A stretch of 64,000 bases of DNA, taken from contig CP002098.1 in the NCBI GenBank assembly GCA_000145985.1, positions 1,122,182 to 1,186,181 of the forward strand, read 5' to 3'. Positions 4,186 through 62,278 of this stretch are shown here, in pieces (positions within the stretch are counted from its first letter, which is position 1; every line of letters starts with the position of its first letter). Origin of the DNA: Ignisphaera aggregans DSM 17230 (GTDB lineage Archaea > Thermoproteota > Thermoprotei_A > Sulfolobales > Ignisphaeraceae). The position numbers and the translations under genes were made by a program. The notes below the pieces were generated by a model. It ran no database searches, was not told the origin of the DNA, and saw only the letters and a list, made by a program, of their open reading frames with translations.

Positions 4186-4188
4186 GAA

Positions 4189-5686: not shown

Positions 5687-5756
5687 ATCTTTTTATAGTC
5701 TAAACTCACTATCTTTATCTACATAAAAACTATGTAGATCTATTTGGGGAAGTAAT

Positions 5757-7190: not shown

Positions 7191-7191
7191 A

Positions 7192-7617
7192 TTATCTACC
7201 ACCAACCCTTATAAAAGAAATTTTAGATCTAGGTATTATCAATGCTCTATTTCCTTGCGCTATACCAATCTCATTTTTTGTTATCTTAACTATCCTTCCA
7301 CCTATTTCTTGACCATTTATTAACCTTAACTCCACATCTACACCAATAAAATCTTCATCAAGTATATATTCTTTTTCGCAACATTCCGAAGAGCCATGCA
7401 AATCACTTAATCCTGAAACCATATAGAGTATTGAGGCTCTCTCAATAATTATAGGATTATTTTCGACATACATCCCTATTTCATGAGCAGCTACCTCATC
7501 TACTAATCCAATTAGCTTTTCACCATCTATAGTATATACCTCTAGACTTCTACCCTCAAATCTATGATCTATAATACTATAACCTTTTCTCCTAGATTGA
7601 TATATTTGTGAATCCAT
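7192..7617 (-). CDS. Tandem Sm-like (LSm) domain protein
   Basis: The 141 residues contain two Sm-fold-like segments. Residues ~20-68 (SLEVYTIDGEKLIGLVDEV ... ILYMV) and ~88-138 (VDVELRLINGQEIGGRIVKI ... ISFIRVG) each read as five short strands with the Sm1-type turn (DG or NG followed by a hydrophobic strand). A loop with two cysteines (SECCEK) lies between. Known archaeal SmAPs are single-domain ring-formers or carry a different C-terminal domain. A two-Sm chain is less usual. It is co-directional with, and 1 nt from, the THUMP gene, so an RNA-metabolism operon is likely. Confidence 0.65.
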   Translation of the reverse strand: MDSQIYQSRRKGYSIIDHRFEGRSLEVYTIDGEKLIGLVDEVAAHEIGMYVENNPIIIERASILYMVSGLSDLHGSSECCEKEYILDEDFIGVDVELRLINGQEIGGRIVKITKNEIGIAQGNRALIIPRSKISFIRVGGR

Positions 7618-7721
7618 TATCTTTCTCCATCTCTATACTTATATCCAAGTATCTAAGTTAATTTTCTAGGTATATATACTCTCTATACCTAATTAGCTTA
7701 AAGGTTGCTGGTGTATTTAAT

Positions 7722-8471
7722 GTGGATATAAAGAAGAAAAAGAACGATATACGCTTAAGTATTTGGAAGATGATGGAAGAACAAAATATTGCTACCTTTC
7801 CTAGACCTGTATACAATAGAATACCAAACTTCATTGGTGCTGAAGTTGCTGGTATTAACATATTGCGTCTTAATCAATTCAAAAAAGCAGAGATAATATT
7901 AGTATCTCCTGATGCTCCTCAAAAGCATGTAAGATTCTTAGCCTTACAGCATGGCAAGAAGGTTATTATGCCTACACCGCATATAAGAAATGGTTTTATA
8001 TTATTAGATCCTACTACTATTCCTAAACGCAATCTAAAAATTGCATCAACAATATCTGGTGCATATAGATTTGGCCATATATTAAAACCGTGGGATTTAC
8101 CAAGAATAGACTTTATCGTTATAGGATCTGTTGCTGTAAATAAATTAGGTGCTAGACTGGGGAAGGGTGGAGGATATGCTGAGCTTGAATATGCTATTCT
8201 TAGATCACTATGCAAAGTTTCAGAGGATACATATATAGCTACAACAATACACGATATACAATTGATTGATACGGATATACCTATGGAGCCTTATGACCTT
8301 GGTGTTGATATAATAGTTACACCAACTAATATTATAGAGGTTAGACCTAGACCTAGAAAACCTAGTGGTATACTATGGGAGCTACTCACCCCAGATAAAT
8401 ATAGAGAGATCCCGTTGCTGTCCGAAATCAAGAATATGTTAATAAACAAAAAACATTTAATCTGTAGCTAA
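7722..8471 (+). CDS. 5-formyltetrahydrofolate cyclo-ligase family protein (COG0212)
   Basis: The 249-residue protein shows family features: an N-terminal helix with RPVYNRIPNFIGAE, the nucleotide/folate fold strands (AEIILVSPDAPQKHVRF), and the glycine motif RLGKGGGYAELEYAILR around residue 145. Bacterial and eukaryotic relatives interconvert folates. Crenarchaeal members are suspected to have another role because these organisms use modified folates, so the reaction is inferred. The start is GTG at 7722, preceded by GGTG ten nucleotides upstream. It lies 34 nt upstream of cysS on the same strand. Confidence 0.8.
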   Translation: MDIKKKKNDIRLSIWKMMEEQNIATFPRPVYNRIPNFIGAEVAGINILRLNQFKKAEIILVSPDAPQKHVRFLALQHGKKVIMPTPHIRNGFILLDPTTIPKRNLKIASTISGAYRFGHILKPWDLPRIDFIVIGSVAVNKLGARLGKGGGYAELEYAILRSLCKVSEDTYIATTIHDIQLIDTDIPMEPYDLGVDIIVTPTNIIEVRPRPRKPSGILWELLTPDKYREIPLLSEIKNMLINKKHLICS

Positions 8472-8505
8472 GTTATAGTGTTAATAGTGAGGGTGAACAA
8501 TATTT

Positions 8506-9936
8506 GTGTTAATAACTATATATAACACATTGTCTAGAAGAATTGAACCCTTTGAACCTATCAATCCTCCACTAGTTAAAGCATACTTTTGCGGTCCTAC
8601 AGTTTACGACTATACTCATCTTGGTCATATAAGAGCGTATTTAGCATTTGATTTTATAAAGAGATATTTAAAGCTTAGAGGTTATGACATCATACATATA
8701 CAGAATATTACTGATATAGATGATAAAATTATCAAGAGAGCTAACGAAGAGGGTGTATCGTGGAAAGAACTAACGGATAAATATATAAGAGATTATCTAC
8801 AGATTCTCAACGCTTTAAAGATTGAAATACACCTTCATCCAAGAGTTACTGAACACATTAATGAAATAATAGAGTTTATCAAAGGTTTAATAGATAAGGG
8901 ATATGCATATGTAGCACCAAGCGGCTCTGTATACTTTGATATATCCTTAGTAAATGATTATGGTAAACTCTCAGGAAGGAAAAAGGCTGAAGAGTGGAGA
9001 CAAGAGGAGGAATTTTTATCTGAAAAAAGAAATCCGTATGATTTCGCTCTATGGAAAGCCTCAAAACCGGGTGAACCATTCTGGGAATCTCCATGGGGGC
9101 GTGGTAGACCTGGTTGGCACACAGAATGTGCCGTCATGAGCTCTAAGTATCTTGGAACACAGTTTGATGTTCATGGAGGTGGACAAGATCTGATATTTCC
9201 ACACCATGAAAATGAAATTGCTATGGCAGAGGCCTTGTATGGGGTAAAACCATGGGTGAAGTACTGGATACATGTAGGATATCTAACAATTAGAGGTGAA
9301 AAGATGAGCAAAAGCCTTGGAAATGTAATTTATGCTAAAGATGCTATAAATAAGTATTCTCCAGAAATCTTAAGGTTATGGGCATTTTCATCCCATTATA
9401 GAAAACAGGTAGAGGTTAGCGATGAAGTACTAAATAGTTATAGGGATGTATATTCAAGGCTTGTATTAGCAGTTGAGACCCTAAAGAAAATTATAAAACA
9501 AGAGAATATTAAATACTCATTAAAAGAAGATGAGATTAATATTCTGAAGAAACTTGAAATGATAGAAATAGAATTTCATAAGGCAATGTCTGATGACTTT
9601 AATACCCCCAAGGCTTTTGAAGCTGTTCATGAACTAACTTCACTAGTATTTAAAGAAATTGAAAGATATGAAACCTTTGAATTAGCATTAAGAGCTTATG
9701 AAATTCTATTAAACTTTAACAAGGTTATTGGTGTTCTAGATAAATATTTTGAAGAAAGTATTACTGTAGACATAGAAATGATAGAAAAATTAATCGAACT
9801 TATATTAAAGGTTCGAACTGAGCTTAGAAAACGAAAAGAATATGAACTAAGTGATAAGATACGACAAGAACTGTTAATGTTAGGAATAAAAGTATTTGAC
9901 TATAAAGATGGGAGTAAATGGGTTATAGAAAGATGA
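8506..9936 (+). CDS. cysS: Cysteinyl-tRNA synthetase
   Basis: The 476-residue class I synthetase shows [13 protein letters not shown] (the HIGH-type signature with the first zinc cysteine), WHTECAVM and FPHHENE for the remaining zinc/cysteine ligands, and KMSKSLGNV. It charges tRNA-Cys in the cytosol. The start is GTG 8506 with a strong site GAGGGTGA about 10 nt upstream. Its last codons overlap the downstream 106-residue gene by ATGA, so the two are translationally coupled. Confidence 0.97.
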
Positions 9937-10253
9937 TATGTACAATCATATCAGAATCCTTAAATGAAAATGAAATATTGCAACTAGTTGATAGAAGTGT
10001 CCTTGAAGCAAGAATAAATAAGGAACAATATATAAGCATAATATTCATCACAAATTCTATAAGAAACGTCTTTAGATATAGAGATATATTCACTAAATAC
10101 ATAGATATTGGTATACGTCTCTATACCATAAAGGAATTAATAGAGCTTAAAGAAATTGTACAGAAATGTAAATATATTTTCATATCTAGTAATGACAAAT
10201 ATTTAAATTCCATAGTAAACGAATACAGTGATAAAAAGATTAATGTTATATAG
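9933..10253 (+). CDS. Unknown 106-residue protein coupled to cysS
   Basis: It begins at the ATG inside the cysS stop (ATGA, 9933-9936): [16 protein letters not shown]. An in-frame ATG at 9918 would overlap more and is less likely. The sequence alternates hydrophobic strands and helices (ISIIFITNS, KYIFISSND), suggesting a small alpha/beta fold. I recognise no motif or family. The coupling to cysS may only reflect operon packing. Confidence 0.6.
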   Translation: MICTIISESLNENEILQLVDRSVLEARINKEQYISIIFITNSIRNVFRYRDIFTKYIDIGIRLYTIKELIELKEIVQKCKYIFISSNDKYLNSIVNEYSDKKINVI

Positions 10254-10258
10254 AATTA

Positions 10259-10323
10259 TATCAACGGTCCCCGTCGCTCCACCCAACATCATGATATCAG
10301 AGGAGCTCCTAAGGTCATCCCGT
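10259..10323 (-). ncRNA. Candidate C/D-box-like sRNA in a GC-rich island
   Basis: This is a GC-rich block in an AT-rich intergenic region, which in hyperthermophiles usually means a structured RNA. On the minus strand it reads: box C-like GGGATGA (10315-10321), 14 nt, box D' CTGA (10297-10300), 4 nt, box C' ATGATGT (10286-10292), 21 nt, D-like TTGA (10261-10264). The imperfect C and D boxes and the long second guide make it weaker than the other sRNAs here. It may instead be another kind of RNA. Confidence 0.4.
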
Positions 10324-10337
10324 ATAATTAGATATAG

Positions 10338-10351
10338 AATACCGGGGTATT
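10338..10351. promoter_or_regulatory. Inverted repeat AATACCGGGGTATT before the zinc-finger gene
   Basis: Perfect 6-bp arms (AATACC/GGTATT) surround a central GG, ending 4 nt before the TTG start at 10356. It could be an operator, or it may just be that GGGGT serves as the ribosome binding site. There is no second copy that I noticed. Confidence 0.3.
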
Positions 10352-10355
10352 AAAG

Positions 10356-10703
10356 TTGTATGGAAATCTATGTGAGATATGTTTTGAAAAACCTGCATAT
10401 TATCGTTGTCCTCTATGTGGACGTTATGTATGTGAAGAACATTTTAATCGTAGACTTAATAGATGTTATATCTGTATAGAGAGTGGTTGTAATGTATGTT
10501 ATAGAAATTTAGCTATAGCTGAGTGTCAATTGTGTGGAAGAAGAATATGTCATAAATGTTCTATTGAATTAGATGAAGTAAGGAGGATATGTTACCTATG
10601 TATTATAGGCTCCATAAAAATAAGGAATACAATTTGGAAAACTGGAAGAAAAATTAATAAGCTTCTACATGAAACTATTAAATATCAAGGTGTATATCTA
10701 TGA
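10356..10703 (+). CDS. Cysteine-rich protein with two tandem zinc-finger repeats
   Basis: The 115-residue protein starts at TTG 10356, 4-9 nt after GGGGT. Residues ~6-40 and ~45-83 are copies of one pattern: CxxC, 8-9 residues, CxxC, 4 residues, CxxH or CxxC, then a final CxxC (CEIC...CPLC...CEEH...CYIC and CNVC...CQLC...CHKC...CYLC). Each copy could bind two zinc ions in a cross-brace, like HIT/B-box-type fingers. The C-terminal 30 residues are basic and helical. It overlaps the next gene by ATGA. Protein or RNA binding is likely, but no function is known. Confidence 0.7.
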   Translation: MYGNLCEICFEKPAYYRCPLCGRYVCEEHFNRRLNRCYICIESGCNVCYRNLAIAECQLCGRRICHKCSIELDEVRRICYLCIIGSIKIRNTIWKTGRKINKLLHETIKYQGVYL

Positions 10704-49160: not shown

Positions 49161-50675
49161 TTAACTTATTTTCCTAAATGGCAAAGGTGCTTCAACTACT
49201 TTATATTTCTCTATATAACCAAAATTGAACTGTTTTATATTTCTCTCAATCTCTACTCCAAGCATATTTAGTATAGTCTTTATAGTGTTTGGCATTACTG
49301 GCTGGAGTAAGAGAGAGGTGATTCTTATTGCTTCTAATGCTGTATATATAGTTTTCATAGGATTTGCTTCTTTCCATGGCTCTCTTCTATTGAGATAACT
49401 ATTAGTGTTATGGGCTATGTCAAGCGTATATTTTATTGCCTCACTAATGTTAAGATTATTATAGTTTTCAATAGCTTTATTCTTTAGCTCATCTATATCT
49501 CTAACAAATTGTTCATCTAGATCTCTTTCTACATTTCCATTAATATATCTCTTCGCTAAAACGGCTACTCTACGGACCAGATTTCCATAATTGTTTAAAA
49601 GATCATTATTATAGATAGAATCGTATATTTCCCATGAAACTTCAGTATCTTTATCATAATTAGCTATTCTAGCTATAATAAATCTTACCACCTCTGGATT
49701 TCCATACCTTTTAATAGTATCTTCAATAGATATTACATTTCCTAGACTCTTCCCCATCTTATGTCCCTTAACTGTTAGATATGCATGTACTAAGAGTTTC
49801 CTTGGTGGTGGAATCCCTAACATTGCTAGAATTGAGAACCATATTGCTGTATGAAACCATAGAATATCTTTACCTATAAGCTGTATTGCTCCACTCCAAT
49901 AATTAGTGAATTCTTCAATGTTTTTCAAATAGCCTATACCCGTAAGATAGTTTAATAATGCATCTATCCATACATATAATGTATAGTTAGGATCAAAGGG
50001 AAGCTCTATACCCCAATACACTCTTGATTTCGGTCTTGCAATCGATATATCTTGGAGTCCTTCTAATTCTATTTTTGATGCAATTTCAATTGCATATTGC
50101 TTAGGATAAACGACATCCCCCTCCTTCAATATTTTAAGTACATAATCTCTAAATTCTGAAATTCTTAGGAAATATGTATCTTCCTCTATAAACTCCAAGG
50201 GCCTTTTATGAATAGGGCATATCGGGGTATTGTTTTCAATGATATACTCTTTTTCAGAATAGAACTTCTCACATCCTGAACAATACCATCCGCTATATCT
50301 TCCCCTATATATATATCCCTTCTCCAACAGCTTATTTAGTACATATTTAACCAATTCTTCATGATCTTTATCTGTAGTCCTAATAAACCTATTATAACCT
50401 ATTCCAAGTACATCCCAATAACTCCTAAAAATACTTGACATTTCATCAACAAAAGTCTTTGGATCCTTACCCCTTTTCTCAGCCTCCCTCTGAAGTTTTA
50501 ATCCATGTTCATCAGTACCGGTTAAAAGAAAGGTATTGTATCCTTGCAAATAGAACCACCTTGCTATAATATCTGCTAGGATAGTAGTATATGCATGTCC
50601 AAGATGAGGTTTATCATTAGGATAGTAGATAGGTGTAGTTACATAGACATATCTATTTCTATTCATAGTTCTCAC
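49161..50675 (-). CDS. metG: Methionyl-tRNA synthetase
   Basis: The 504-residue class I enzyme has YPNDKPHLGHAYTTILADI (HIGH region), a zinc knuckle with YCSGCEKFY ... CPIHKRP, and KMGKSLGNVI in place of the usual KMSKS. The C-terminal dimerisation domain found in some MetRS is absent. It charges methionine tRNAs. The start ATG 50675 has a site near GGTGAGAACTATG. Confidence 0.95.
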   Translation of the reverse strand: MRTMNRNRYVYVTTPIYYPNDKPHLGHAYTTILADIIARWFYLQGYNTFLLTGTDEHGLKLQREAEKRGKDPKTFVDEMSSIFRSYWDVLGIGYNRFIRTTDKDHEELVKYVLNKLLEKGYIYRGRYSGWYCSGCEKFYSEKEYIIENNTPICPIHKRPLEFIEEDTYFLRISEFRDYVLKILKEGDVVYPKQYAIEIASKIELEGLQDISIARPKSRVYWGIELPFDPNYTLYVWIDALLNYLTGIGYLKNIEEFTNYWSGAIQLIGKDILWFHTAIWFSILAMLGIPPPRKLLVHAYLTVKGHKMGKSLGNVISIEDTIKRYGNPEVVRFIIARIANYDKDTEVSWEIYDSIYNNDLLNNYGNLVRRVAVLAKRYINGNVERDLDEQFVRDIDELKNKAIENYNNLNISEAIKYTLDIAHNTNSYLNRREPWKEANPMKTIYTALEAIRITSLLLQPVMPNTIKTILNMLGVEIERNIKQFNFGYIEKYKVVEAPLPFRKIS

Positions 50676-50763
50676 CTCTGATTTACTAAAATCTCTATAC
50701 TAATGTCTATCTCTCTTACAAACTTAAATTTCTAAGTATCAATAGCTTTACTATGTATCATCA

Positions 50764-51687
50764 TTATATAGATGTCAATGGCTCTACCCTACTCATTATA
50801 TCATCTTCACGAGGTTCTAATAATCCTACTCTAGCTAAATACCATATCTCCCTATGTATATTTGCTTCACCAGGTGATACTCTTCTTAAAGGTCCTAATG
50901 TCTCAAGCTCTAATATTTTATCATTTGCATAGACCTCTACATATACATCAAAATCTGGATAACGAAGTGTTTCACCCGGATGGAATTTCTTTATAAATAC
51001 ATAGTTATCAACATAGTAAGCAGCCCAATATGGATAAGCTCTAGCACCTATTTTTATGGGTTCTCTAACTCTTTCATCATGTTTAATGAATATGAAATTA
51101 TTTGAGAATTTAACTCTATAATCAGCCAGCTTTGTATAGGGCCATAAAGCAATAGCTCTATCAGGAAGAAGACACTTTTCATCAATACATCGAGATTTTA
51201 TTGGAATTATTGCAAAACCATTTCTTCTCATAACTGAAAGTGCCCAACATGCAAATTCTATATCCCATCTACCAATATTAGTAATTCTATGTATAACTTC
51301 TACACTATTATCTGATGGACCAGGTCTAATAATAATCTCCTTTTGAACCATATTAACAGTTTCTGGGTTTCCCCTAACTATTATCTCATTGTCTCTAACC
51401 TTAATTTCTACAGGTTTATCGTCTAAGGAATATGATCTTGGCATAGCTTCAGGTGAAACCCATAGCCTATGACCTCCAAAGATTCTCCATAGTCCTTCAG
51501 ATGTTTCAACAGTTATCTCAGGGACAATACCAAATATATTTAGATCTGGACTATCTTTATGAGCTAGAAACAGTATTCTAGGTCCAATATCTGTTGCAAT
51601 ACCTAGCATAACATTATTTATTTGAAACAAGTTTACCTTAAACCCATCTAAAACTCTGTACCCTAGATTTATCATTGTGTATCCCAA
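50764..51687 (-). CDS. Mutarotase-fold protein (DUF4380-like)
   Basis: The 307-residue protein is beta-rich with GYRVLDGFKVNLFQINN and IATDIGPRILFLAHK at the start. GGHRLWVSPE follows, the kind of start seen in galactose mutarotase-like domains (DUF4380). NIGRWDIEFACWALSVM is another conserved segment. It might bind or epimerise a sugar, though the catalytic residues are not certain. The gene lies between metG and an MFS transporter, all on the minus strand. Confidence 0.65.
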   Translation of the reverse strand: MGYTMINLGYRVLDGFKVNLFQINNVMLGIATDIGPRILFLAHKDSPDLNIFGIVPEITVETSEGLWRIFGGHRLWVSPEAMPRSYSLDDKPVEIKVRDNEIIVRGNPETVNMVQKEIIIRPGPSDNSVEVIHRITNIGRWDIEFACWALSVMRRNGFAIIPIKSRCIDEKCLLPDRAIALWPYTKLADYRVKFSNNFIFIKHDERVREPIKIGARAYPYWAAYYVDNYVFIKKFHPGETLRYPDFDVYVEVYANDKILELETLGPLRRVSPGEANIHREIWYLARVGLLEPREDDIMSRVEPLTSI

Positions 51688-51726
51688 GATATGCTTATAA
51701 ATAAATAGAATTAATTAAGTTTTTCT

Positions 51727-52902
51727 CTATCTGCACCAAGACTCTGCCAAATATAACAATATTATGGAGATGATTTCAACAGCGATTACATATATTGTTG
51801 TTATATATATACCAAGATTTATAAGTGGTGTTATGATGAATCCTCCAATAGTCCATGAAACCCCATATATCAGTCCAAATACACCATAGGCTAAAGCTCT
51901 CTGTTTTTCCTCAACAATATCAGCAACACCCGCTCTCATATTTGTTTCATATACACCCATTATAATGCCCCATATTGCAGAGAGAACATATGGTAAAATC
52001 CTATTTGTAGTGGATAGGAATAGTGTGATGGGGATCGATATACATAGTAGTGGAGCTATATAGAGGGATCTAAGCTTTATGATATCGTATAGAAATCCTA
52101 TGGGGAAAGCTATTATAGCATCTGTAGCCATTGCAATCATATATGATAGAGCTATTTCTACATCTGATAGTATTGCCCAGTGTTTAAGGTAGTAGGATAT
52201 TATTGCCCAGTGTATATATCCTAGAGAGAGGAATGCCATTGATATTGTATAGAACCAGAACCTCTTACCAAGACCTCTAAATGTAAGCCTCTGTCTTCTA
52301 CCAACTGCTCTAATTGATGGATATAGTCTCCATGCAGCTACAACTAGCGATACAGAGATTACTGCAGGTACTATTAGAACTATATAGGCCAGACCATAAC
52401 CTCCATAACTTAGTGCTAAAGCTACAATTAAAGGTCCTGAAATAGCACCTAACTGATCAAGAACCTCATGTATCCCAAAACCCTTGCCAAGACCAATACC
52501 ACTAACAACCTCTGATAATATAGTATCTCTTGTTGGTGTTCTAAGACCCTTACCAATACGCTCAATAAGATATATAGCTACAACAGCTATCCACCAATTA
52601 GTAAAAGCAAGTAGAGGTAGTGTGAATTGCAATAGATATCCAGCTAAGGTGAATCCCCAATATATAGCTGAGGAACCTATATAACTTGCAATAACACCAC
52701 TTACAAATCTCATGCCATATCCTATCAAGTCTCCTGCTCCCACAATAGCTGCAGCTATTGCAGGAGCTTCAACAGTCTCTAAATAGGACCCACTAACAGA
52801 TCTTGCACCCTCATAAACAATATCAGCTGTAAGAGATACGAAACCAAGTAATAAGAATACTATTAGCATCCTCCTAGATATAGAGTTCTTCATAACTATC
52901 AC
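51727..52902 (-). CDS. Major facilitator superfamily transporter
   Basis: The 391-residue protein has about twelve transmembrane segments with the typical loop motif after the second (RFVSGVIASYIGS) and the cytoplasmic loop ERIGKGLRTPTRDTIL, which resembles MFS motif A and is frequent in members related to sugar or drug efflux. The substrate is unknown. Start is ATG 52902 or 52893. Its 5' end borders the decayed element region. Confidence 0.87.
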   Translation of the reverse strand: MIVMKNSISRRMLIVFLLLGFVSLTADIVYEGARSVSGSYLETVEAPAIAAAIVGAGDLIGYGMRFVSGVIASYIGSSAIYWGFTLAGYLLQFTLPLLAFTNWWIAVVAIYLIERIGKGLRTPTRDTILSEVVSGIGLGKGFGIHEVLDQLGAISGPLIVALALSYGGYGLAYIVLIVPAVISVSLVVAAWRLYPSIRAVGRRQRLTFRGLGKRFWFYTISMAFLSLGYIHWAIISYYLKHWAILSDVEIALSYMIAMATDAIIAFPIGFLYDIIKLRSLYIAPLLCISIPITLFLSTTNRILPYVLSAIWGIIMGVYETNMRAGVADIVEEKQRALAYGVFGLIYGVSWTIGGFIITPLINLGIYITTIYVIAVEIISIILLYLAESWCR

Positions 52903-53319
52903 CTTAGATTCATAGACATCTAAGCTAAAGGGATAAAATAAATATATTTATGCTTCTAAAGATTGAAATGCTACATATTGTGATTGCCATAGAGATAGTT
53001 CATTGCTATCCTACCTCCTCCACAATGAATAAAACATATCCAAATAGAATTCATAGGTCTTGCTACATAACTACATCAGCTATCTACACTTGAATAAAGA
53101 GATAGAAAGCTAAAAACCATAGTCAGATTGCCACAGACAACATAATTTGATATGCCAAATAGACTCACAGTGAGAGGAAATAAATGTGGAGCAATGTTTA
53201 AAACTCTTTGGGAGAGCATCAATAGAGTTGATTGGTGGAACCACAGAGATTTGAACTTCTAACCTTGTATTTCCCTATCTCCACTGAGTAATACTGAATA
53301 ATTATGCGAAGTACTACAT
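52903..53319. other. Intergenic region with decayed element boundary
   Basis: Apart from the MFS promoter region, it holds the mutated boundary copy (53149-53262) described separately. No intact gene is visible. Flanking sequence to the left of that copy may also belong to an old element but shows no coding potential. Confidence 0.5.
53149..53262 (-). repeat. Decayed copy of the tRNA-Pro att boundary
   Basis: The segment aligns without gaps to 61590-61703 (offset 8441). Both begin with GATATGCCAAAT, continue through GAGTTGATTGGTGG, and run into a mutated 3' tRNA end (GATTTGAAC). Most differences are G to A or C to T in this copy, as expected for old DNA drifting to AT-rich host composition. 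It marks an older integration at the same tRNA. Confidence 0.75.
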
Positions 53320-53727
53320 TCATTTCTTGTAGATTTTCTGGTATGCTAATGTTAGCAAGATTCCTGTTAGTATAGCTCCGAACACGTATCCCAGCATCGT
53401 TATGGTGATGAACATCCTTTTCTTTGGGATGACGTTTCTCTTCAATGGTTTCAGACAACTCAATTCTACTATAAGTGCAAACACAATGGATGCTACGGGA
53501 AATAGGTATAATGGGCTGAATATACCCAGTCTAGAGGATATAGGCAAGTCTTCTCTATCTAGCTGAGGCTTTAACGGGGCTGGAGATATATACGAATAGA
53601 AAGCTAATTGAACAGCTACAGCAATGATAGAGGATAGACCTATGAAGACTAGGAAAGCAAAAGCAAGAGTAACATATATACGGGCTTCATCAAAGTCCTG
53701 CAAAATTACCACCTTCTCTACACACAT
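53320..53727 (-). CDS. Three-span membrane protein, element remnant
   Basis: The 135-residue ORF has three hydrophobic segments (~18-44, 70-90, 107-129) and a basic linker KPLKRNVIPKKRM. It starts at ATG 53727; a TTG near 53703 directly after GGTGGT is a possible true start. It lies between the decayed boundary (53149-53262) and the newer att copy (54081), so it is probably left from an older integrated element. I recognise no family. Confidence 0.55.
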   Translation of the reverse strand: MCVEKVVILQDFDEARIYVTLAFAFLVFIGLSSIIAVAVQLAFYSYISPAPLKPQLDREDLPISSRLGIFSPLYLFPVASIVFALIVELSCLKPLKRNVIPKKRMFITITMLGYVFGAILTGILLTLAYQKIYKK

Positions 53728-53825: not shown

Positions 53826-54037
53826 TTACCATCGGATATCTATGTATCTAACCCATATACCGTGATTGCTTGATGTACCGAAAACTGGGTCAAAGTCTAT
53901 TTGGGCGTAAAGCGTCTCCTCCAATTGGTACGCCTATTGCGTATACATCTGCTATTATGAATATCCAGTATGTATGTCCAATTGTCACATTAAATGTTCC
54001 CTGAACATCAATATCATAGTTCCATGAAGTATCAAGC
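53826..54037 (-). pseudogene. Fragment of a beta-rich surface-type protein, frameshifted
   Basis: In one frame the minus strand reads LDTSWNYDIDVQGTF and then VTIGHTYWIFIIADVYAIG. In another it continues ETLYAQIDFDPVFG and ends WVRYIDIRW at 53826. The frames join near 53925, so a single frameshift breaks the gene. The 5' part is missing. The aromatic, strand-rich sequence suggests an exported or surface protein. Confidence 0.55.
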
Positions 54038-54080
54038 TAGCATCAATTGAAAGTATGGAGAAGTAAGTATATGAGTTTAT

Positions 54081-54121
54081 TTGGTGGGGCCGCGGGGATT
54101 TGAACCCAGGACCACGGGGGC
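54081..54121 (-). repeat. attL: copy of the 3' half of tRNA-Pro
   Basis: It matches 61673-61713 with one difference at 54108 (A for C). The match runs from the CCA end through the T-arm and variable loop to the 3' side of the anticodon stem, the usual attachment region for archaeal integrases. It then stops abruptly. It has no 5' half and is not a functional tRNA. Confidence 0.88.
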
Positions 54122-54127
54122 TCCTGC

Positions 54128-54170
54128 GATATGCCAGACCTATTTACCCCGGCACGAGCCTGATATGCCA
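54128..54170 (+). repeat. GATATGCCA repeats near attL
   Basis: Two copies of GATATGCCA at 54128-54136 and 54162-54170, 34 bp apart. Identical units cluster by the other end of the element (61531-61598) and one lies at 53149. They could be integrase arm sites or origin iterons. Confidence 0.6.
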
Positions 54171-54321
54171 AATCAGCAGGAGCGATATTCTATAAGTACT
54201 ATCACAGCGTTCAGTACTTCAAATACCGTATGCTAATATCTGATTAAACGCTTACACAATAGTAATCGCAACTCCAGCTAAGAACCTTGAATGAAAAGTT
54301 TCGATCTTCGCTTTTTATACG

Positions 54322-54470
54322 TAGTTGCAGTACTCAGATGCTTTTTGTGTTTCTGTTTTCTGTAGCTTGAAAGAATAGATCTTTTGCACAGCACATTGTG
54401 AAACCCCCACGGAACCAGCTACGATTCGATACACGCAGTCAACCAGCAAGCTTAAAGCTTACTGCAACTA
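54322..54470. repeat. 149-bp segment bounded by 11-bp inverted repeats
   Basis: TAGTTGCAGTA (54322-54332) and its exact reverse complement TACTGCAACTA (54460-54470) bound a noncoding segment. AAGCTTAAAGCTT lies just inside the right arm. It could be a small terminal-repeat element or a structured RNA. I see no target-site duplication. Confidence 0.35.
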
Positions 54471-54487
54471 GTATTCGTGTCTCTTGT

Positions 54488-55817
54488 TTATCTCCTTCTC
54501 TTTAAAATTAAGACTATCACAGTTATTATCGTCAATGCCGCTCCTATTACAGCTAGCTGTATCATTGTCGGCACAGTAATCCAGCCTTTTTGCTGTTGAG
54601 ATTTTCTTCTGTTGATATGGAGTACACAACAAGTCTCGTGTTGGATGTTGGAGAATATACAACAAGTTTCACGTTGCCGAAGACAACAATTGTGATAGCT
54701 TTGGCTAGAGCGTAGTCTATTCCCGCTACGTATATATCGCTCCCAGCTAGTGTTGCTCTACCAATGTTGTTGAAGTGCAAGCTGGTGCTCATAATTTCGC
54801 TCAGCACACGTTTCTCAACTACACTTAGATTGGTGCCATTGGTGCCTAGGACGTATAGTGTACGCATCTCATAACCCTCGCTGTAGCTCTCTCCAAAGGC
54901 ATATAAATAGACATTGCTGCACACAATCTTCTGCACGAACCCAACGTCTCTGTTTACGGCTACCAGCTCTCCATCTAAGCTAAACTTGGCGACACCCTTG
55001 TCGCCTCAGACGTAGACGTATATTGCTTCCGTCAAAAGTTACACCATAAAGTGGGCCTAGACATCCCTCACTATCTTCAGGATAGACGATCACTTTGAGG
55101 ATTTCGAGATCTCTGCCAAGTACAACTATTAACGAGTGATTATCGTGGTATCCCACAGTCCATATCCTACCGGTAGATGATTCAACACCTATATCATTCA
55201 TCCACCCCTCTCTCCATGAGCCGAAGTATATCTCCCTCGATTCTACAAGCCCGAGAGTATTAAGATCTCTTTTCTCAACCAGCCAAACCTTCTCTGGGTC
55301 ACCATCTCCGTCCAAATCCTTTCTAATCGAACCACCCACGTACAGTGCTCTGCCATCATATGTCAGCGAGTAGTACTCTGACGACTCTCTACCTGAAACC
55401 TCTTTCAAAGTGTTGAGGTTTGCATCATACACATAGATGTACTTGTAGGAGACACCGACGTAGGTATAACCAACTGTGTAGAGCTTCCCATCAATTGACA
55501 ATGCAGTTATAGAGTCTCCCAGCCTGTTACCGATTATCTCTTTCACTACTCTACCATCGCTTCTGCGTAGCAGAGCTACGTATGGTCTGCCTACATTCAA
55601 ATCGGGGAAGTTGTAGCCAACCTCTCCTACAACTGCTACGTAGTCCCCAAAGATGCATGTCCCATAGGTGTCGTCTCGTCTATCCGTTGGGTTTATGTAT
55701 CTACTCCATTTTACAAATACCCCCGCTAGCTTCATCACCCACTACCACTACTGTTATGAACGGCGTCACCAGGTGGATGAACATTAGAATCAATGTTAGC
55801 TGTGGTAAGCTACGCAT
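54488..55817 (-). pseudogene. Beta-propeller surface protein with C-terminal anchor, broken in several places
   Basis: Reassembled in order: a signal peptide from ATG 55817 (MRSLPQLTLILMFIHLV, ending about GDEAS); the main body in a shifted frame (54980-55738; propeller blades such as LYTVGYTYVGVSYKYIYVYD and ALYVGGSIRKDLDGDGDPE); a third part with KGVAKFSLDGELVAVNRDVG joining the 54562-54936 ORF; and a membrane anchor in yet another frame (VPTMIQLAVIGAALTIITV then basic KRRR, ending at 54488). The breaks include a shift at a GGGGG run near 55730 and a TGA near 55000. It was probably an exposed protein. Confidence 0.75.
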
Positions 55818-55918
55818 AGAGCACTATCCACAGAACACCTACAACGCTCAGATGTATATGCTTTGATGCAGTATATGAGGATAAAAAATTATAATTTCAC
55901 CCTCTGGCAGGTGGTAGT

Positions 55919-56461
55919 GTGGCTCGGGTGGATGTAATGTCTGAGGAAGTCGTCTTAGGGGGAATCACAAGTTTAGAGCTTGGCGGTGGCTATGGTATAT
56001 ACGTTACGAATCGCAGAATAATAGGGGTTAAGAAGGGTTTGTTCGTAAAGAAGGTTCTGAGCGGCTTGCTCTCCCTCATAATCACAGTTTTAATATTTGT
56101 GATTATCGGTCTACTAACATTTGGTGTAGCAGTAGGAGGCACTTTAGGAGTTATGTTTGGACTTCTAATGATGAGGTTTGGTAGATGGATTACGAAAACA
56201 ATTGCACCCGGACTTGTAAGAGATACGAATCCGAAAAGCCTAGCCGAGCTCGACACAAACAAAGACTACGAAATACGCAAAGAGGACATAGACTATATAG
56301 AGATCAAAGAGCCATATATGTTCGAATCCGGCTACATCAAGATTGTCCGTAAAGGCGGAAGTAAAGACAAGGAGAAACACATAAGTATCAGCGATAGGTA
56401 CGAGTATGAATATCTTCTGGAATTGCTCAGAAAATTCTACCCAGAAGCTCTAAGAGTTTAA
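55919..56461 (+). CDS. Membrane protein with PH-like domain
   Basis: The 180-residue protein starts at GTG 55919 just after AGGTGG. An N-terminal beta segment (VVLGGITSLELGGGYGIYVTNRRIIGVKKG) resembles a bacterial PH-like (bPH) strand pair. Two transmembrane segments follow (~47-66, 68-88), and the C-terminal KEDIDYIEIKEPYMFESGYIKIVRKGG completes the PH-like sheet. It is intact, unlike most genes here, so it may have been acquired recently or kept under selection. Function is unknown. Confidence 0.65.
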   Translation: MARVDVMSEEVVLGGITSLELGGGYGIYVTNRRIIGVKKGLFVKKVLSGLLSLIITVLIFVIIGLLTFGVAVGGTLGVMFGLLMMRFGRWITKTIAPGLVRDTNPKSLAELDTNKDYEIRKEDIDYIEIKEPYMFESGYIKIVRKGGSKDKEKHISISDRYEYEYLLELLRKFYPEALRV

Positions 56462-56699
56462 TAATAAGCTCTGTAAATCGGTTCAACACATTTTTATATA
56501 AACATTTTTATAGAGCAAGGCTCGTCTTCTCCTCGATTGTACAGTCACTTTGGTTTACTCGCTGAAGGCTGTTCTGGCTGCAGATCAACCGCTCCTCATA
56601 GTTTTAGTGAAGTTAACCGGAGAGCTTGTTGAGAACGTTTTCAGGTAAAATTGTATAAAAAATGTATTGAGCAGAGAGCATAAGGCTTGATGGGCCTGT
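56462..56699. other. Short region with a gene remnant
   Basis: On the plus strand, about 56548-56649, the reading LVYSLKAVLAADQPLLIVL ending ENVFR before a stop looks like the end of a lost gene. No start or ribosome site is evident. Otherwise the stretch is AT-rich. Confidence 0.35.
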
Positions 56700-57335
56700 C
56701 TATGCTTGTACTGTCTTCTCTATGGTTATATGCTGCGGTAGTTGGTTCCATGCAATTATGTGTAGTAGTAGTGCGATTATCACGATGTATATTCCTATTC
56801 CTACTGCGATGAAGAGTATTGCTCCTATGAGGTATACAAGTCCTACTGCTCTAAACATTCCGATGTTTGTATGCTTTTTGACTAGGTCGTAGGAGTCTTT
56901 CAATGCTTTTGCTGAGAGGATCCAGAATATGTACGTTGCAATGAAGGAGAGTATAATTGTTTGCAGTGCTTCAGCTGCTTCCTCTAATTCTCCATAGGAT
57001 AGAGCTGTGAAGAGCTTCTCTAGTGCTCCTCCAATAGTTAGTCGTCCCAGAATTGTGAAGAGCAGCACGAATATGCTAAATAATATAGACCACTCGTAGC
57101 GTTGCTTAATCCTAATATTGTTAACAGCTTTCGAGAATCTCGATACAGCTACATATGTAACCACGATTCCTGCGAACCACAGAATCAAGCCGATGGGAGG
57201 CCAATCCACCACGAACTCATCGATGAGGAGCCCAACAAACCCTATTACTGCACCCACAATCCCCAACCTCTTAATACCGTCCAACGCAATCTTCTCTACA
57301 GCAGGAGCCTGAACAGTTTGCGTAGCATCACTCAA
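56700..57335 (-). CDS. DUF996-like membrane protein
   Basis: The 211-residue protein has about five transmembrane segments, including LGIVGAVIGFVGLLIDEF and LILWFAGIVVTYVAVSRFS. RFSKAVNNIRIKQRYEWSIL and ALKDSYDLVKKHTNIGMFRAVG match the DUF996 family of archaeal membrane proteins as I remember it. It is intact. Role unknown; such proteins occur on chromosomes, so it could be passenger DNA of the element. Confidence 0.7.
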   Translation of the reverse strand: MSDATQTVQAPAVEKIALDGIKRLGIVGAVIGFVGLLIDEFVVDWPPIGLILWFAGIVVTYVAVSRFSKAVNNIRIKQRYEWSILFSIFVLLFTILGRLTIGGALEKLFTALSYGELEEAAEALQTIILSFIATYIFWILSAKALKDSYDLVKKHTNIGMFRAVGLVYLIGAILFIAVGIGIYIVIIALLLHIIAWNQLPQHITIEKTVQA

Positions 57336-57479
57336 CCCTTTGCACCGAAGGAGAGAAAGCTGTGAAGCTTAAATAAAAACTTTATTCTTCAAAAATTATA
57401 TAACCAGTTCAAAGTATTGAGAACCTGTTAAGCCAAGACCGGCGGCAACCACAGAGAAAAATCCTTTATGAAGATGAGT

Positions 57480-57562
57480 TCACTTCTTCCTCAGCCGGAC
57501 AACTATCACTACTGCAACTGTAGCTACAGTAACTGTTATGATTAGTGCTACGAGCTACATCT
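57480..57562 (-). pseudogene. Orphan C-terminal membrane anchor
   Basis: The frame LVALIITVTVATVAVVIVV with tail RLRKK and a stop at 57480 is preceded by an in-frame TAG. It is the same kind of anchor-plus-basic-tail as at 54488 and 60258. It is the end of a lost surface protein. Confidence 0.55.
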
Positions 57563-57578
57563 GATTTATACATAATAT

Positions 57579-59810
57579 TTATTTAACTTCTGAGATTATT
57601 GTTCGCCTTACTGCTACATAACGTTTAATCAGCGAAGCAATTCTCATGATGTTAAGTGTTACTAGGTATACTATTGCTGAAAAGATTGATATCATTAGGA
57701 CTAAGAGTATGTAAAGATAGGCAGATATAATCGTTATTTTGCCCACCATCAACCTAGACGCAAACCACAGTAATAATCCCGCAAATGGACCTAAAACGCT
57801 ATTTATGCTTGAGTTAAGCAACACCTCTTGATCTAAGTTTATCTGTGGTAATACGAAAAATACCAGCAGACTAATCGTTATTAGAGCGAAAAACATGGCT
57901 ATTCTAACAAAGTCAGCTTCACCCCTATCAACTGCTTTATCTTCCATTCCTCCTAATGCTATTAAAGTTACAGATATCAGTATAACGATGATACCTATTA
58001 TTGAATTATATAGACCTGAAAGAAGTGTGATGATTATCATGAGGAGTCCTATAGTACGCATCGATCCAAGATATACAAATGCAAAGCATCCTCCCATAGA
58101 TGCAAACCCAATAAATAACGATATTAGCGCGAATTCAAATGAATACGATATATTTATCGGTAAGATGTATGACAAAGCATTGAGAATGAGTGGAGTGATT
58201 ATGATGAGTATGCCATAGGCTAACAAGGTAATTCCGGGCACTCCCTGAATAATATCAGATTCATACCTTACTTTACCACCACGTAGTATACCGATACCTA
58301 TCAGCAATGGCAAAACAGCGAACAGCATTATTGATGGTTCTCTTCCCGCACCGATCGATAAGAATAGAACTACAGCCATAGAGACTATCACTAAGAAGAA
58401 GAGGATGTAAACTATGTAGATATCTATAAGAGGTGCTAGAGCTAATTCTGCCGAAAGCCGTAGAGATCTCCTGAAATTGGATCTATTTCTGTTAATGCCA
58501 TATATAATCACAGATCCAAGCAATATGGTTGATGCAATAGATGCGGCTATAACTATCATAGTGTTGTCTATTCCTAGTCTTCCCAACTCCACGAAATGAT
58601 CTATAGGATTCACAGTTATGCGACCCGTCATAAGATATAGAAAAGCTGAGAAGATAATTACTGCAACCACTATGTAGGCTATTGGAGTTAATAATGTCCT
58701 TACACGGGAGCACCCTACAAATCCCTCCCTGTTGTACGTAGTTATTATGGCGAGTACTGCAGTAAGCAAAATGCCTGTTATTAGTCCAAGCGTAGAATAT
58801 ATCATTATTGGAGCTACTACTCTTGAACACCATGGTTCAAATAATTCCTTCTTCGCCTTTTCCTCTGGTGAAGCTAAGGCAGAAAACTTTGTACTGTACT
58901 CTGATGCTTTCTCAGAAATAGTGCTCAGCGATAAGCTAGCTTTTTCAGCTAGCGATTCCAAATCGCTGAGCAGGTCAGCGAAATAATCTATGAATCTGCG
59001 TACAAGACCTGTAGGATCACGTCTTCCAATAGACTCTAGATATTTTTGTACAGTTGTAAGCATGTTAACTAGATTCGAAACCTTACTGTTAATACCATCA
59101 ACCCCTCTTTTCAGATCCTTAAATGCTGATGAACATTCTGAAAGTGGTGCTTTTAGTGCTGAGAAGGGAATATTCTCGCCATATATGTAACGCTCCAATT
59201 CATCTATGACTACAGGCAAACAGCTATCTATTCTTGAAGAGGAGTCCACTATCATGCCTAGATAGGAATTCAATGAGTACACTTCATCTTTAAGTTGTGA
59301 GACTTCGCTAATGCCAATTTCTTTAATGGCATCAATCGCACATACTTTCTTATTGAACATGGTGATGCATGACTTATTAGTAAGCCAGTAAATTATGCTT
59401 TCCGTATACGACTTGTATGGAACAACAGCTTCTCTAAGTGTTAGAACCTGTCTGTGAAAATCTCTTAAAGCTTCTATATCAGAAATTGTTATCTGAGACA
59501 ATTCTTTCCTAAATACAACCTGTGTTAGAATGGCTAATGCCTCTTCTTTTTTAGAAACTCGCGCACCACTACTTGCAAAAATATCGATACCGCTAGCATA
59601 GGGTAAAGCATTAGTAGAATTCACAACGATGTATCTAGTGTCGTTGTAGTCAACTATATCAACTATTTGAAAGCTGATATCAAGAAGCATTCTATTCCGT
59701 GCTACTACATCTAGTGCAGAATAATTTGATGCCGTTGTTATAATTGCTGTTATATGTGGAGACACTGCTAGTAAGATTAATGTAGCTATAGCAGCAAGTA
59801 GCTTTCTCAC
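57579..59810 (-). CDS. Large membrane protein with exported coiled-coil domain
   Basis: The 743-residue protein begins with a signal peptide (MRKLLAAIATLILLAVSPHITA), then about 310 residues outside the cell, containing coiled-coil segments (EIGISEVSQLKDEVYSLNSY, DYFADLLSDLESLAEKASLS) and several cysteines. The C-terminal ~400 residues contain about ten transmembrane segments. I recognise no family. It is the longest intact gene of the element and could be a structural or secretion-related surface protein. The next gene fragments upstream are decayed. Confidence 0.7.
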   Translation of the reverse strand: MRKLLAAIATLILLAVSPHITAIITTASNYSALDVVARNRMLLDISFQIVDIVDYNDTRYIVVNSTNALPYASGIDIFASSGARVSKKEEALAILTQVVFRKELSQITISDIEALRDFHRQVLTLREAVVPYKSYTESIIYWLTNKSCITMFNKKVCAIDAIKEIGISEVSQLKDEVYSLNSYLGMIVDSSSRIDSCLPVVIDELERYIYGENIPFSALKAPLSECSSAFKDLKRGVDGINSKVSNLVNMLTTVQKYLESIGRRDPTGLVRRFIDYFADLLSDLESLAEKASLSLSTISEKASEYSTKFSALASPEEKAKKELFEPWCSRVVAPIMIYSTLGLITGILLTAVLAIITTYNREGFVGCSRVRTLLTPIAYIVVAVIIFSAFLYLMTGRITVNPIDHFVELGRLGIDNTMIVIAASIASTILLGSVIIYGINRNRSNFRRSLRLSAELALAPLIDIYIVYILFFLVIVSMAVVLFLSIGAGREPSIMLFAVLPLLIGIGILRGGKVRYESDIIQGVPGITLLAYGILIIITPLILNALSYILPINISYSFEFALISLFIGFASMGGCFAFVYLGSMRTIGLLMIIITLLSGLYNSIIGIIVILISVTLIALGGMEDKAVDRGEADFVRIAMFFALITISLLVFFVLPQINLDQEVLLNSSINSVLGPFAGLLLWFASRLMVGKITIISAYLYILLVLMISIFSAIVYLVTLNIMRIASLIKRYVAVRRTIISEVK

Positions 59811-60257
59811 TATTCATCCCCTACAGATATTCCATGAATCCAAATATAAATTTATCGATTCTCTTTTTCATATTAGTAGCTCTACAGGCTCCTGCTTACC
59901 TTTGAGGATACTATGAATAATGAATAGTACTCTTACCGATGCCTGATGCTTTTCCAGATCTCTGGCGTTATATCAAAGTCTTTGATATAGACCCCGGAGA
60001 GACCTCAACACTCTGCTCACTACTGAAGCACACATAACATACTGACAAGCAGGTTTTGAGCCCACATTCATGGGCAACAGCGAGATCAAAGAATCCGCTG
60101 GATTTAGGTTAAAAGCCTTAAGCAATAACTGTAGCTCTGAGGAAAAAGGTTGGAATAGAAATCCATAACCGAGAGGAAGAACAGACGTAATTCCAATGTT
60201 TTTATTTTTATCTGCTAGAGCTTTCTCTTTCAGTCGTATATGGTTGTAAAGGTTTTG
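59811..60257. other. Noncoding stretch with a gene tail
   Basis: On the minus strand at 59933-59995 a tail GVYIKDFDITPEIWKSIRHR precedes a stop. It looks like the end of a lost gene. The remainder shows no reading frame of interest. Confidence 0.35.
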
Positions 60258-60633
60258 TTACTGTCTTCTCTTCCTCATCTTCACAGCTATTACCGCTAGC
60301 AGTGATATTGCTGCAACAGTCAGTATCACCATGGTTGTAGTTGTCAGCTGTATGGGTAATCTGTATATCACTGACCCAGTTGCAGTCCTATTTGCAGTTG
60401 CAATCTCGGCGTTCTCACTATACACAACGCTGTAGTTCTTGATGTTCAGAGGTTCCACGGAGATCCTGTTCCCTAACCAAGATACTGCTACTCTCTACTG
60501 CTCACCTCTCTCCACAGATGCTGAAAGCATTGCCAAACTCAATCCACCTTCGTTGAAGCTAACAACAGTTAGGTTGTAGTCCTCCAAATCGTAGACAGCA
60601 TCCCCAGCATCAACAACGATTGTAAAGTTGGAG
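60258..60633 (-). pseudogene. C-terminal part of surface protein, fused to integrase remnant
   Basis: After the integrase arginine box the frame continues TSNFTIVVDAGDAVYDLEDY ... SASVERGEQ, a TAG at 60495-60497, then VAVSWLGNRISVEPLNIKNY ... and a membrane anchor (TMVILTVAAISLLAVIAV) with KMRKRRQ tail ending at 60258. Both sides of the TAG are in the same frame. A deletion probably joined it to the integrase. Confidence 0.6.
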
Positions 60634-61489
60634 GTCTCCGGCGGTCTAAGGCCTGTCTCGGCTAGGAGGATGAAGGCGAGCTTCGCGCCTATGTCTGTGA
60701 TTGCTTCGGCTACACACCTAATCTCGTCAATTGTCGGCGCCTTCTCGTAGCCTAGCATAATCCTCTGCATGAGCGGCATCTCTTTGCTACTGTCCTTGGG
60801 GACCTTGACAGCTTCCAGGATCTGTGTTGCGAGGGTTCTATTTCTCTTCTTAATCGCCACCTTGACGAACTTCCTGAACGCTTTAACCATGTGTCTGGCT
60901 TTAGCGTAGCCAAATTCATCTACAAGTTCATCCCTCAGGTCCTCCAGCCTGTCAAGAGTAAACGTGTAGCCCAGCTATGCCAGGAGCTCGTTGAGGTACT
61001 TCCAGTACTTGGAAGCTGTATCCCTGGACAATGCCTTCCGAGAGCTTGGAGCTCTTCTCACATATCCTGACCTGCCTATCCAGCCACTCCCTGAACTCAT
61101 CAAGATCCTGCTGCATATAACCGTGTACCTGGTGGCCTCAGCGAATATCTCTGCTGCAAGCCTGTTCTTAACGAACTCGACCAGTATAGACTTCAGAACA
61201 GGGTCTGAGACCGCTGACGCGAGGATCTTGACGAAGGTCACGGGGTCGACTTTAACTATTGAAACGCCTTCAACCAACTCCGCATATTCTTCAGGCGTTA
61301 GGAATTCGAGCATTCTCTTCAGAAGCTCGTCGGAGACCCCCTCTTCCTGCTCTTAATCCTGTTAGCCTGGTAAGGCTCTAAACCTAGGTCTCTGGATCTC
61401 AGACCCTTCTTCTCCCACAGGTAGTCGAATACCTTGTAGCGAACCTCGTCGAGTATGCTGGATAAGTCTATGAACCTCGTATCAACCAT
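60634..61489 (-). pseudogene. Tyrosine recombinase (integrase), broken
   Basis: N-terminal ORF MVDTRFIDLSSILDEVRYKV ... DLGLEPYQANRIKSRKR (start 61489) shifts frame at a GGGGG run near 61340 into GVSDELLKRMLEFLTPEEYAELVEG. Near 61025-61130 a stretch reads sensibly only in another frame (QDLDEFREWLDRQVRICEKS). A TAG at 60975-60977 interrupts NELLA*LGYTFTLDRLEDL, and the frame then goes on to the catalytic start with the arginine box TGLRPPE. The rest of the catalytic domain is missing. The recombinase is not functional. Confidence 0.8.
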
Positions 61490-61530
61490 GCATACCCACC
61501 CTGATAATCTTTAAAGAATAGCCTATCCCC

Positions 61531-61598
61531 ATATGCCAGAGCGATATGCCAAATATATGCCAAGTCTGATATGCCAGTCTGCATGATTCGATATGCCA
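61531..61598 (+). repeat. Five ATATGCCA direct repeats by the integrase
   Basis: Copies of ATATGCCA start at 61531, 61544, 61555, 61569 and 61591 (three of five preceded by G). Spacings of 13, 11, 14 and 22 bp are near one or two helical turns. They lie between integrase start and tRNA-Pro, where arm-type sites or iterons would be expected. Confidence 0.7.
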
Positions 61599-61673
61599 AA
61601 TGGGCTCGCACCGAGAGGGGATATACGTAAAGCAAGGCTTAAAGCTTTTTGGGGAAACATTAGAAGAGTTGAT

Positions 61674-61750
61674 TGGTGGGGCCGCGGGGATTTGAACCCC
61701 GGACCACGGGGGCCCAAGCCCCGCATTCTACCAAGCTAAACTACGGCCCC
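61674..61750 (-). tRNA. tRNA-Pro(TGG), integration site
   Basis: Acceptor GGGGCCG/CGGCCCC with A73 and encoded CCA, anticodon stem CGGGG/CCCCG with loop CTTGGGC (anticodon TGG), variable TGGTC, T-arm CGGGG/CCCCG. The tRNA remains intact because the element carried a copy of the 3' half. No intron. Confidence 0.96.
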
Positions 61751-61780: not shown

Positions 61781-62278
61781 TTAAGCTATTATGTTTTCTA
61801 TAGCGATATTTTCCTGTATTGGGATGTAGATTTGGTTTATACTGTATTTATCTTCTATACTATTCAATATGTTTAGGAATAGTGCGTAGAGTGCTGCAAA
61901 AGATATTTCTATTAGATCAGATTTTTTATTGAATATATGTAGCTTTCTTCCGAATACTATCTTTAGTATTTCTTCTATTTCTTCAAGAGAGATATTTCTA
62001 TTGCTTGCAACTCTTCGGATTATACTAATTAGCTTCTCTATATCTTCCTCTCTCAATTCATTTATATTCTTCACATAGTTTTGAAGTATTTCAACAGTTG
62101 AAAATCTGATTTTTATACCTAGAGATTCAGCAATTCTATGTATAGCATTCAATGACTCTGGTATACAATCTATATACTCCTTAACTATCTCTAAACTATC
62201 TCCACATAGCGAATATGCACATATAGCTATATCATCTATATCGAAGAGCGACATATGCACATCGCCATTCCAAGTCAT
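61781..62278 (-). CDS. Unknown helical protein
   Basis: The 165-residue protein is almost entirely helical and acidic (ELREEDIEKLISIIRRVASNRNISLEEIEEILKIVFG, in shorter runs). Start is ATG 62278, or ATG 62254 (MSLFDIDDIAICAYS). It lies between tRNA-Pro and the CAU tRNA, outside the element, and has host-like composition. I recognise no family. Confidence 0.6.
   Translation of the reverse strand: MTWNGDVHMSLFDIDDIAICAYSLCGDSLEIVKEYIDCIPESLNAIHRIAESLGIKIRFSTVEILQNYVKNINELREEDIEKLISIIRRVASNRNISLEEIEEILKIVFGRKLHIFNKKSDLIEISFAALYALFLNILNSIEDKYSINQIYIPIQENIAIENIIA

Follow-up and report, generated by a model that had tools for sequence, protein, structure and literature searches.

Stacked insertions with arm-like repeats in a tRNA-Pro gene of Ignisphaera aggregans, and related toxin–antitoxin cassettes probably inserted in trans

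The tRNA-Pro(TGG) gene of the hot-spring archaeon Ignisphaera aggregans DSM 17230 adjoins a decayed integrated element of 7.6 kb, here termed element A, which lies beside the remains of older insertions (elements B and C) and has ends that recur around small toxin–antitoxin units in other genomes. The window, that is the whole stretch analysed, is 64,000 nucleotides long (C1:1122182-1186181) and belongs to a genome that consists of one contig of 1,875,953 bp; the I. aggregans AQ1.S1 genome is described with 1,875,953 bp and a guanine-plus-cytosine (GC) content of 35.7% (PMC3035270). Positions are those of the window unless prefixed by C1 or by a locus; other genomes compared carry G numbers (G005, G006 and G007 are congeners) and loci in them carry L numbers. 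R1 and R2 are models, built from sequence only, of the two types of element end, distal and integrase-side respectively. The features of the locus, including its attachment (att) cores and the relevant open reading frames (ORFs), are as follows.

53134-53211, reverse strand: integrase-side end of element C, the oldest insertion still visible, which includes TGGCATATC at 53149-53157 (R2 match, E-value 2e-5, outside the training set)
53232-53266, reverse strand: distal core of element B, the third copy of the tRNA-Pro 3' end and a strongly decayed one (24/34 matches)
53320-53727, reverse strand: 135-residue membrane protein inside element B (ORF, between cores 2 and 3)
54035-54087, reverse strand: integrase-side end of an older insertion, element B (R2 match, E-value 3e-7, outside the training set)
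54081-54121, reverse strand: distal att core, left end of element A (41-nt repeat)
54121-54236, reverse strand: distal arm, in which TGGCATATC occupies 54128-54136 and 54162-54170 (R1 match, 79 bits, in the training set)
54562-55738, reverse strand: broken surface-protein gene in two ORFs, kelch-like, of a host paralogue family (eight further matches in its own genome, best 49% identity)
55919-56461, forward strand: 180-residue membrane protein, bPH assignment unconfirmed (no Pfam match)
56700-57335, reverse strand: DUF996 membrane protein (PF06195, E-value 1.3e-31)
57579-59810, reverse strand: 743-residue membrane protein, near-orphan cargo in a block of 37% GC (ORF)
60261-60620, reverse strand: remnant of the C-terminus of a membrane-anchored surface protein, fused to the truncated integrase (translation)
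60624-61489, reverse strand: pNOB8-type integrase pseudogene with frame changes; beyond TGLRPPE the catalytic C-terminus (YxxR, Tyr) is missing (PHROG and plasmid matches, read-through translation)
61530-61598, reverse strand: integrase-side arm with five TGGCATATC-type sites (61590-61598, 61568-61576, 61554-61562, 61543-61551, 61530-61538)
61673-61713, reverse strand: att core at the tRNA, the 3' half of tRNA-Pro (41-nt repeat, one mismatch to 54081-54121)
61674-61750, reverse strand: tRNA-Pro(TGG), the integration target, which stays complete after insertion (ARAGORN; same tRNA beside a 165-residue gene in seven congeners)

Element A is bounded by a direct repeat of 41 nt in which 40/41 positions are identical and the orientation is the same, so the duplication of the tRNA-Pro 3' half proposed in a first-pass annotation of this DNA is real. 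When the genome (1,875,953 bp) was searched with the tRNA-Pro end, the distal core tied for second-best match (94%, E-value 2.6e-14) and the remaining matches sat at other tRNA-like places. The annotation had also reported a change of composition between the two copies. The element does have 42% GC against 34-36% outside, but the interval is itself a mosaic, since its four blocks differ (GC fractions 0.437, 0.425, 0.373 and 0.471).

The gene nearest the tRNA end was predicted to be a broken integrase, and it is one. Three ORFs at 60495-61489 make up a single integrase with several frame changes; one of them matches phrog_5127 (integrase, E-value 2e-7), and the read-through translation aligns at 25-28% identity and 96-98% query coverage with integrases from 12 Sulfolobales plasmid records, pNOB8 among them. 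Its N-terminus is 80% identical to the integrase of G029. From the catalytic series R...YxxR...Y it retains the first arginine motif (TGLRPPE) without the remainder; in the related L072 integrase the arginine, YELR and the C-terminal tyrosine are all present. The element A enzyme cannot be active, because the catalytic part beyond TGLRPPE is gone and the frame runs into the surface-protein tail, and by homology and motif content it is a dead member of the pNOB8-type family. The att core at 61673-61713 lies outside the integrase gene, which starts at 61489 and is not split by integration.

Both ends of element A carry clustered short direct repeats, which the first-pass annotation had overlooked. 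The sequence GATATGCCA, which is TGGCATATC as read on the tRNA strand, occurs in three copies at the integrase end, together with two one-base variants, and in two copies beside the distal core. Pairs of GATATGCCA 4-34 nt apart are found at three places in the genome, all of them at the two ends of element A (reversed control, 0). Across 214 genomes of the order the cluster pattern gave 15 matches in 9 genomes, against one match for the control; 14/15 lie at a tRNA-Pro 3' end or its copy, the exception being inside a gene of G049. The integrase-side end reads core, about 50-60 nt, TTGGCATATCACCATTTTCAGACTGGCATATC, and the distal end reads TGGCATATC, about 60 nt, TGGCATATC-AGC-TATATGCC, 17 nt, TGGCATAT, core. 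A strict form of the distal pattern, scanned over 84,980 species, was found besides the own genome in five contigs, all from Thermoprotei-type metagenome genomes; it has no match in IMG/VR. Other families of the order have the tRNA core and the repeats with this spacing as well, as expected for sites like the arm sites of phage lambda. We predict that the end repeats are arm-type sites on both sides of the core; their position, their conservation at both ends and their covariation with the integrase argue for binding.

The R2 model matches the integrase end of element A at 61561-61652 (E-value 5e-14, an end in its training set) and, further left, the ends of elements B and C. The third core, with its 24/34 matches, exceeds all 300 shuffles (maximum 22), and this left region includes a 92-bp match to the tRNA-end flank of element A (E-value 8e-11). 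By these marks there are at least three stacked insertions at the locus, of which element A (54081-61713) is the newest; B and C are older, more decayed and reach to about 53.1 kb. The first-pass annotation took 54081-61713 to be the whole element: the insertion is genuine, but that interval covers only the newest member of the tandem. The farther an insertion lies from the tRNA, the more decayed it is, as would follow from each newcomer entering at the tRNA itself, and we infer an order of insertion events in which element A comes last.

The tRNA-Pro gene beside the 165-residue gene (61781-62278) is kept in seven congeners. A homologue (66-68% identical) of the gene at 49164-50690 begins close to tRNA-Pro in two congeners, at a distance of 197 bp in G007 and of 628 bp in G005, whereas the window gene itself lies about 11 kb away, and none of the element A genes was found at these congener loci. 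The comparison of this locus across relatives, which the annotation had suggested, therefore finds the insertion missing in G007 and G005, though G005 keeps one end. Together with the type of integrase and the repeat-bearing ends, this synteny without insertion upholds the view of a decayed element in tRNA-Pro with both ends visible. The genes at 50.7-53.1 kb are also missing between the tRNA and the neighbour gene in G007 and G005; in the window, MFS-like and neighbouring genes (50700-53130) separate element C from the gene that adjoins tRNA-Pro in G007. G006 carries a 7.2-kb element of its own at this tRNA-Pro gene (L030 3975-11215), with glycosyltransferase-like genes and an AF2212-like/PIN pair at its distal end.

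The cargo of element A is unlike that of its relatives. The 743-residue protein has no match in plasmid or phage collections, a search that had been proposed for it, and among 60 relatives it has two weak matches only, in G015 and G013. The DUF996-like membrane protein was correctly named, as PF06195 matches it. The bPH identity suggested for the 180-residue protein was not sustained: the protein has no Pfam match, a low-confidence model, a best PDB E-value of 0.34 and no significant fold match, and no homologue was found in those 60 relatives. Searches by tblastn found no toxin–antitoxin remnants inside element A. The membrane cargo had been taken as the mark of the element type, but relatives share the recombination ends and not the cargo, which is private to element A. 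That the type is undescribed is likely; its hallmark is likely the recombination module, comprising the tRNA core, TGGCATATC arms and a helix-turn-helix (HTH)-like N-terminus on a pNOB8-type integrase, which is common to many elements.

The two end models recovered ends outside their training sets in G006, G011, G012, G016, G029, G068, G071, G120 and others, and, outside the order, in G519, which has a perfect tRNA-Pro core and TGTTATATC-type arms; its gene beside the distal end is read as a candidate HicB-like gene. Units of 1.0-1.7 kb without an integrase lie between paired ends in G011, G071, G019 (two), G085 (two), G026 and G029 (G029_2). These eight cassettes, which often stand in tandem, each hold one toxin–antitoxin-type pair: a PIN toxin and a small antitoxin (AF2212-like in two), TumE and a small partner, or an NTP-transferase with HEPN. 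The PIN match in one of the G019 units (G019_2) is weak (E-value 0.0035). Two further units retain an integrase remnant, beside an ARMT1-like gene in G012 and beside a DUF6036 protein and a winged-helix protein in G084, and an AF2212-like/PIN pair adjoins the distal end in both G006 and G016. As a test of vertical descent, the VapBC cassettes of G019 and G029 were compared; they are 93.7% identical over 1,088 bp and the host flank 78.5%, the cassettes being clearly more alike than the flanks. The TumE cassette of G026 has 79-81% DNA identity to those of G085 and of the I. aggregans genome itself, with no flanking DNA match beyond the tRNA and the ends.

Elsewhere in the I. aggregans genome, C1:698961-699074 (L177 10243-11502) is a distal end of this family (64.5 bits) that has been displaced and whose core is broken. 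On its flanks are a VapB-like antitoxin gene, a relative of the one in G019_2, and a TumE-partner gene about 80% DNA-identical to the G026 cassette. R1 has no other distal-end match in the genome away from the locus.

Arrays in other genomes link the arm sequence to the integrase. In G146 (L068, G146:C2 966-7392) three elements abut at a tRNA-Pro core, and the middle one (B) has an internally deleted integrase. This element B has TGTTATATC at both ends and element A of the same array has TGGCATATC; the arms therefore belong to the element and not to the site. Sorted by integrase target, the arms are TGGCATATC at tRNA-Pro, ATGCATATC at tRNA-Val(CAC) and, in G016, TTTCATATC at tRNA-Gly(CCC). A tRNA-Gly(CCC) array in G137 (L186, G137:C199 809-8430) has about five small units with CTTTCATATC arms, which hold respectively a STAND-like ATPase, a small gene with a PIN gene, a TumE pair, a small gene with a retropepsin-like protein, and a PIN protein. 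A pattern built on these arms found tRNA-Gly distal ends in G120, G137 and G038 (control, 0). Read across these loci, the putative arm sequence tracks integrase and target, and tRNA-Gly arrays carry TTTCATATC like the tRNA-Gly integrase.

Other loci add variants of the integrase itself. The tRNA-Pro integrases of L067 and L068 both lack the middle of the protein yet stay open, the N-terminus being fused in frame to the C-terminus. In L083 (G055, 3056-10602) the 3' half of a tRNA-Val recurs as a 45-bp exact copy, which bounds 7.4 kb of DNA containing a pNOB8-type integrase. The tRNA-Gly element of L072 (G016:C8 1679-10330) has an intact 458-residue integrase (L072 8954-10330) with metallophosphoesterase, primase-like and helicase-like proteins, and is a candidate autonomous relative.

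We consider it highly probable that tRNA-Pro(TGG) holds an accretion array, built by a pNOB8-type integrase with TGGCATATC arm sites, and that the same ends bound toxin–antitoxin cassettes probably inserted in trans. The target, the cores, the ends, the decay, the tandem order and the sharing of ends and cassettes can be read from the DNA. Recombination at the tRNA-Pro core by a pNOB8-type integrase is well supported by this arrangement. The tyrosine integrase would recombine the element core, equal to the tRNA 3' half, with the chromosomal tRNA; after insertion the complete tRNA would adjoin the integrase end and the distal end would carry a copy of the core, so that later elements would insert between the tRNA and older ones. 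An N-terminal Cro/CI-like HTH would let the integrase bind TGGCATATC arm sites to either side of the core, as lambda Int uses arm sites. The small integrase-less cassettes of other Thermoprotei would probably be inserted by a cognate integrase supplied in trans, and it is the integrase-less units with matched ends that point to such movement. The best reading of element A is then a dead, integrase-bearing member of a cassette system whose cognate integrases may move minimal toxin–antitoxin cassettes in trans; with its integrase dead, the element would be trapped and its cargo drifting.

Several observations weigh against this proposal. No intact tRNA-Pro integrase was found, every readable copy being broken or cut by a contig end. 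The Cro/CI HTH matches of the integrase N-termini are weak (HTH_3 in 6/12, best E-value 5e-4; HTH_26, best 1.4e-4), and the HTH-like N-terminus is a candidate arm-binding domain. No such repeats were seen beside the pNOB8 and pMGB1 cores, and arms are therefore not general for the integrase family. The integrase-side end that G005 retains (an R2 match) is a repeat-bearing remnant, which makes its locus a nearly but not fully empty site rather than a clean one. A predicted structure of the N-terminus of a related integrase was of low confidence (mean predicted local distance difference test score, pLDDT, 51) and was set aside. Searches of PDB profiles with the N-terminal domain gave no credible match.

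A serious rival, which may hold but which we doubt, is that the cassettes are leftovers: larger integrase-bearing elements would have shrunk by deletion, and the toxin–antitoxin pair beside the distal end would have survived by addiction. Such pairs do lie beside the distal end in integrase-bearing or larger elements (G029_1, G006), integrase remnants are kept in several small elements (G012, G084), and every tRNA-Pro integrase seen is decayed. However, eight cassettes keep both ends with no trace of an integrase, their arms and cores remain matched at both ends, up to five cassettes stand in tandem, and the TumE cassette is common to G026, G085 and the I. aggregans genome at 79-81% while its flanks are unmatched beyond the tRNA and the ends.

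It is improbable that the TGGCATATC repeats are instead operators controlling the integrase gene with no part in recombination. They do lie directly upstream of that gene, and a Cro/CI-like N-terminus could autoregulate, but the distal end has them too, as do both ends of cassettes that have no integrase gene, at a near-fixed distance from the core. Descent from a fusellovirus (SSV-type) or a degenerate pNOB8-type conjugative plasmid is likewise improbable, although the integrase has homologues on Sulfolobales conjugative plasmids. In contrast to SSV, the integrase gene does not contain the core; element A has neither the att-split integrase nor the structural genes of a fusellovirus; Pfam and PHROGs recognised no viral or conjugation genes in the interval, transfer ATPases included; and the largest gene is unmatched in plasmid or phage records. 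Partial tRNA copies can arise by duplication, but a segmental duplication of part of the tRNA gene with no mobile element is scarcely credible given an integrase at the expected end, end repeats that match each other, the recurrence of this arrangement in many genera and relatives that lack the insertion.

Phage lambda attP likewise has repeated short sites on both sides of the core and an integrase with an extra N-terminal domain, although element A is archaeal, its arms are known from sequence alone, and its proposed arm-binding domain looks Cro/CI-like and not like the lambda Int N-domain. Among archaea, type II integrases have the att core outside the gene, unlike SSV; the pNOB8 integrase is listed with undemonstrated activity (Table 1), and this 2021 review describes no arm-type sites for archaeal integrases (PMC8371274). 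Element A resembles pNOB8-type (type II) elements in an integrase homologous over nearly its full available sequence, in a tRNA 3' half as core and in a core outside the gene; it differs from pNOB8-type plasmids in having arm repeats at both ends, no recognised conjugation genes and integrase-less relatives. For the cryptic integrated elements of Thaumarchaeota, possession of an integrase is part of the definition, and their length is 2.6 kb or more (PMC6563490). Like these, element A is integrated in a tRNA gene and has an integrase and att sites with no recognised viral or plasmid hallmark genes, and tandem integration is known there as well (PMC6563490). Unlike them, many units of the present family are 1.0-1.7 kb, lack an integrase and hold a toxin–antitoxin pair only.

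Whether Thermoprotei have an integron-like system on tRNA genes is, in our judgement, evenly balanced. In such a system, cognate pNOB8-type integrases would move minimal integrase-less cassettes, mostly single toxin–antitoxin pairs with lambda-like arm sites, from one species to another in trans and stack them in tandem at tRNA-Pro, at tRNA-Gly and perhaps at further tRNA genes, and three-letter changes in the arms would set the pairing of integrase and cassette. Integron arrays are likewise tandem small gene units, often toxin–antitoxin, gathered at one site by a tyrosine recombinase; they differ in using IntI and attC sites, as against a pNOB8-type integrase, putative duplex tRNA cores with arms and a tRNA target.

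We found no description of integrase-less toxin–antitoxin cassettes at archaeal tRNA genes in the open-access literature, and the family is widespread and apparently undescribed, its smallest members being a toxin–antitoxin pair without an integrase of its own. The conserved ends offer ready substrates and a putative specificity code (TGG, TTT, ATG or TGT before an ATATC half). If the cassettes move in trans, they would be a minimal vehicle for toxin–antitoxin pairs in hyperthermophilic archaea, and this would bear on the abundance of such pairs in these genomes and on the variability of tRNA flanks.

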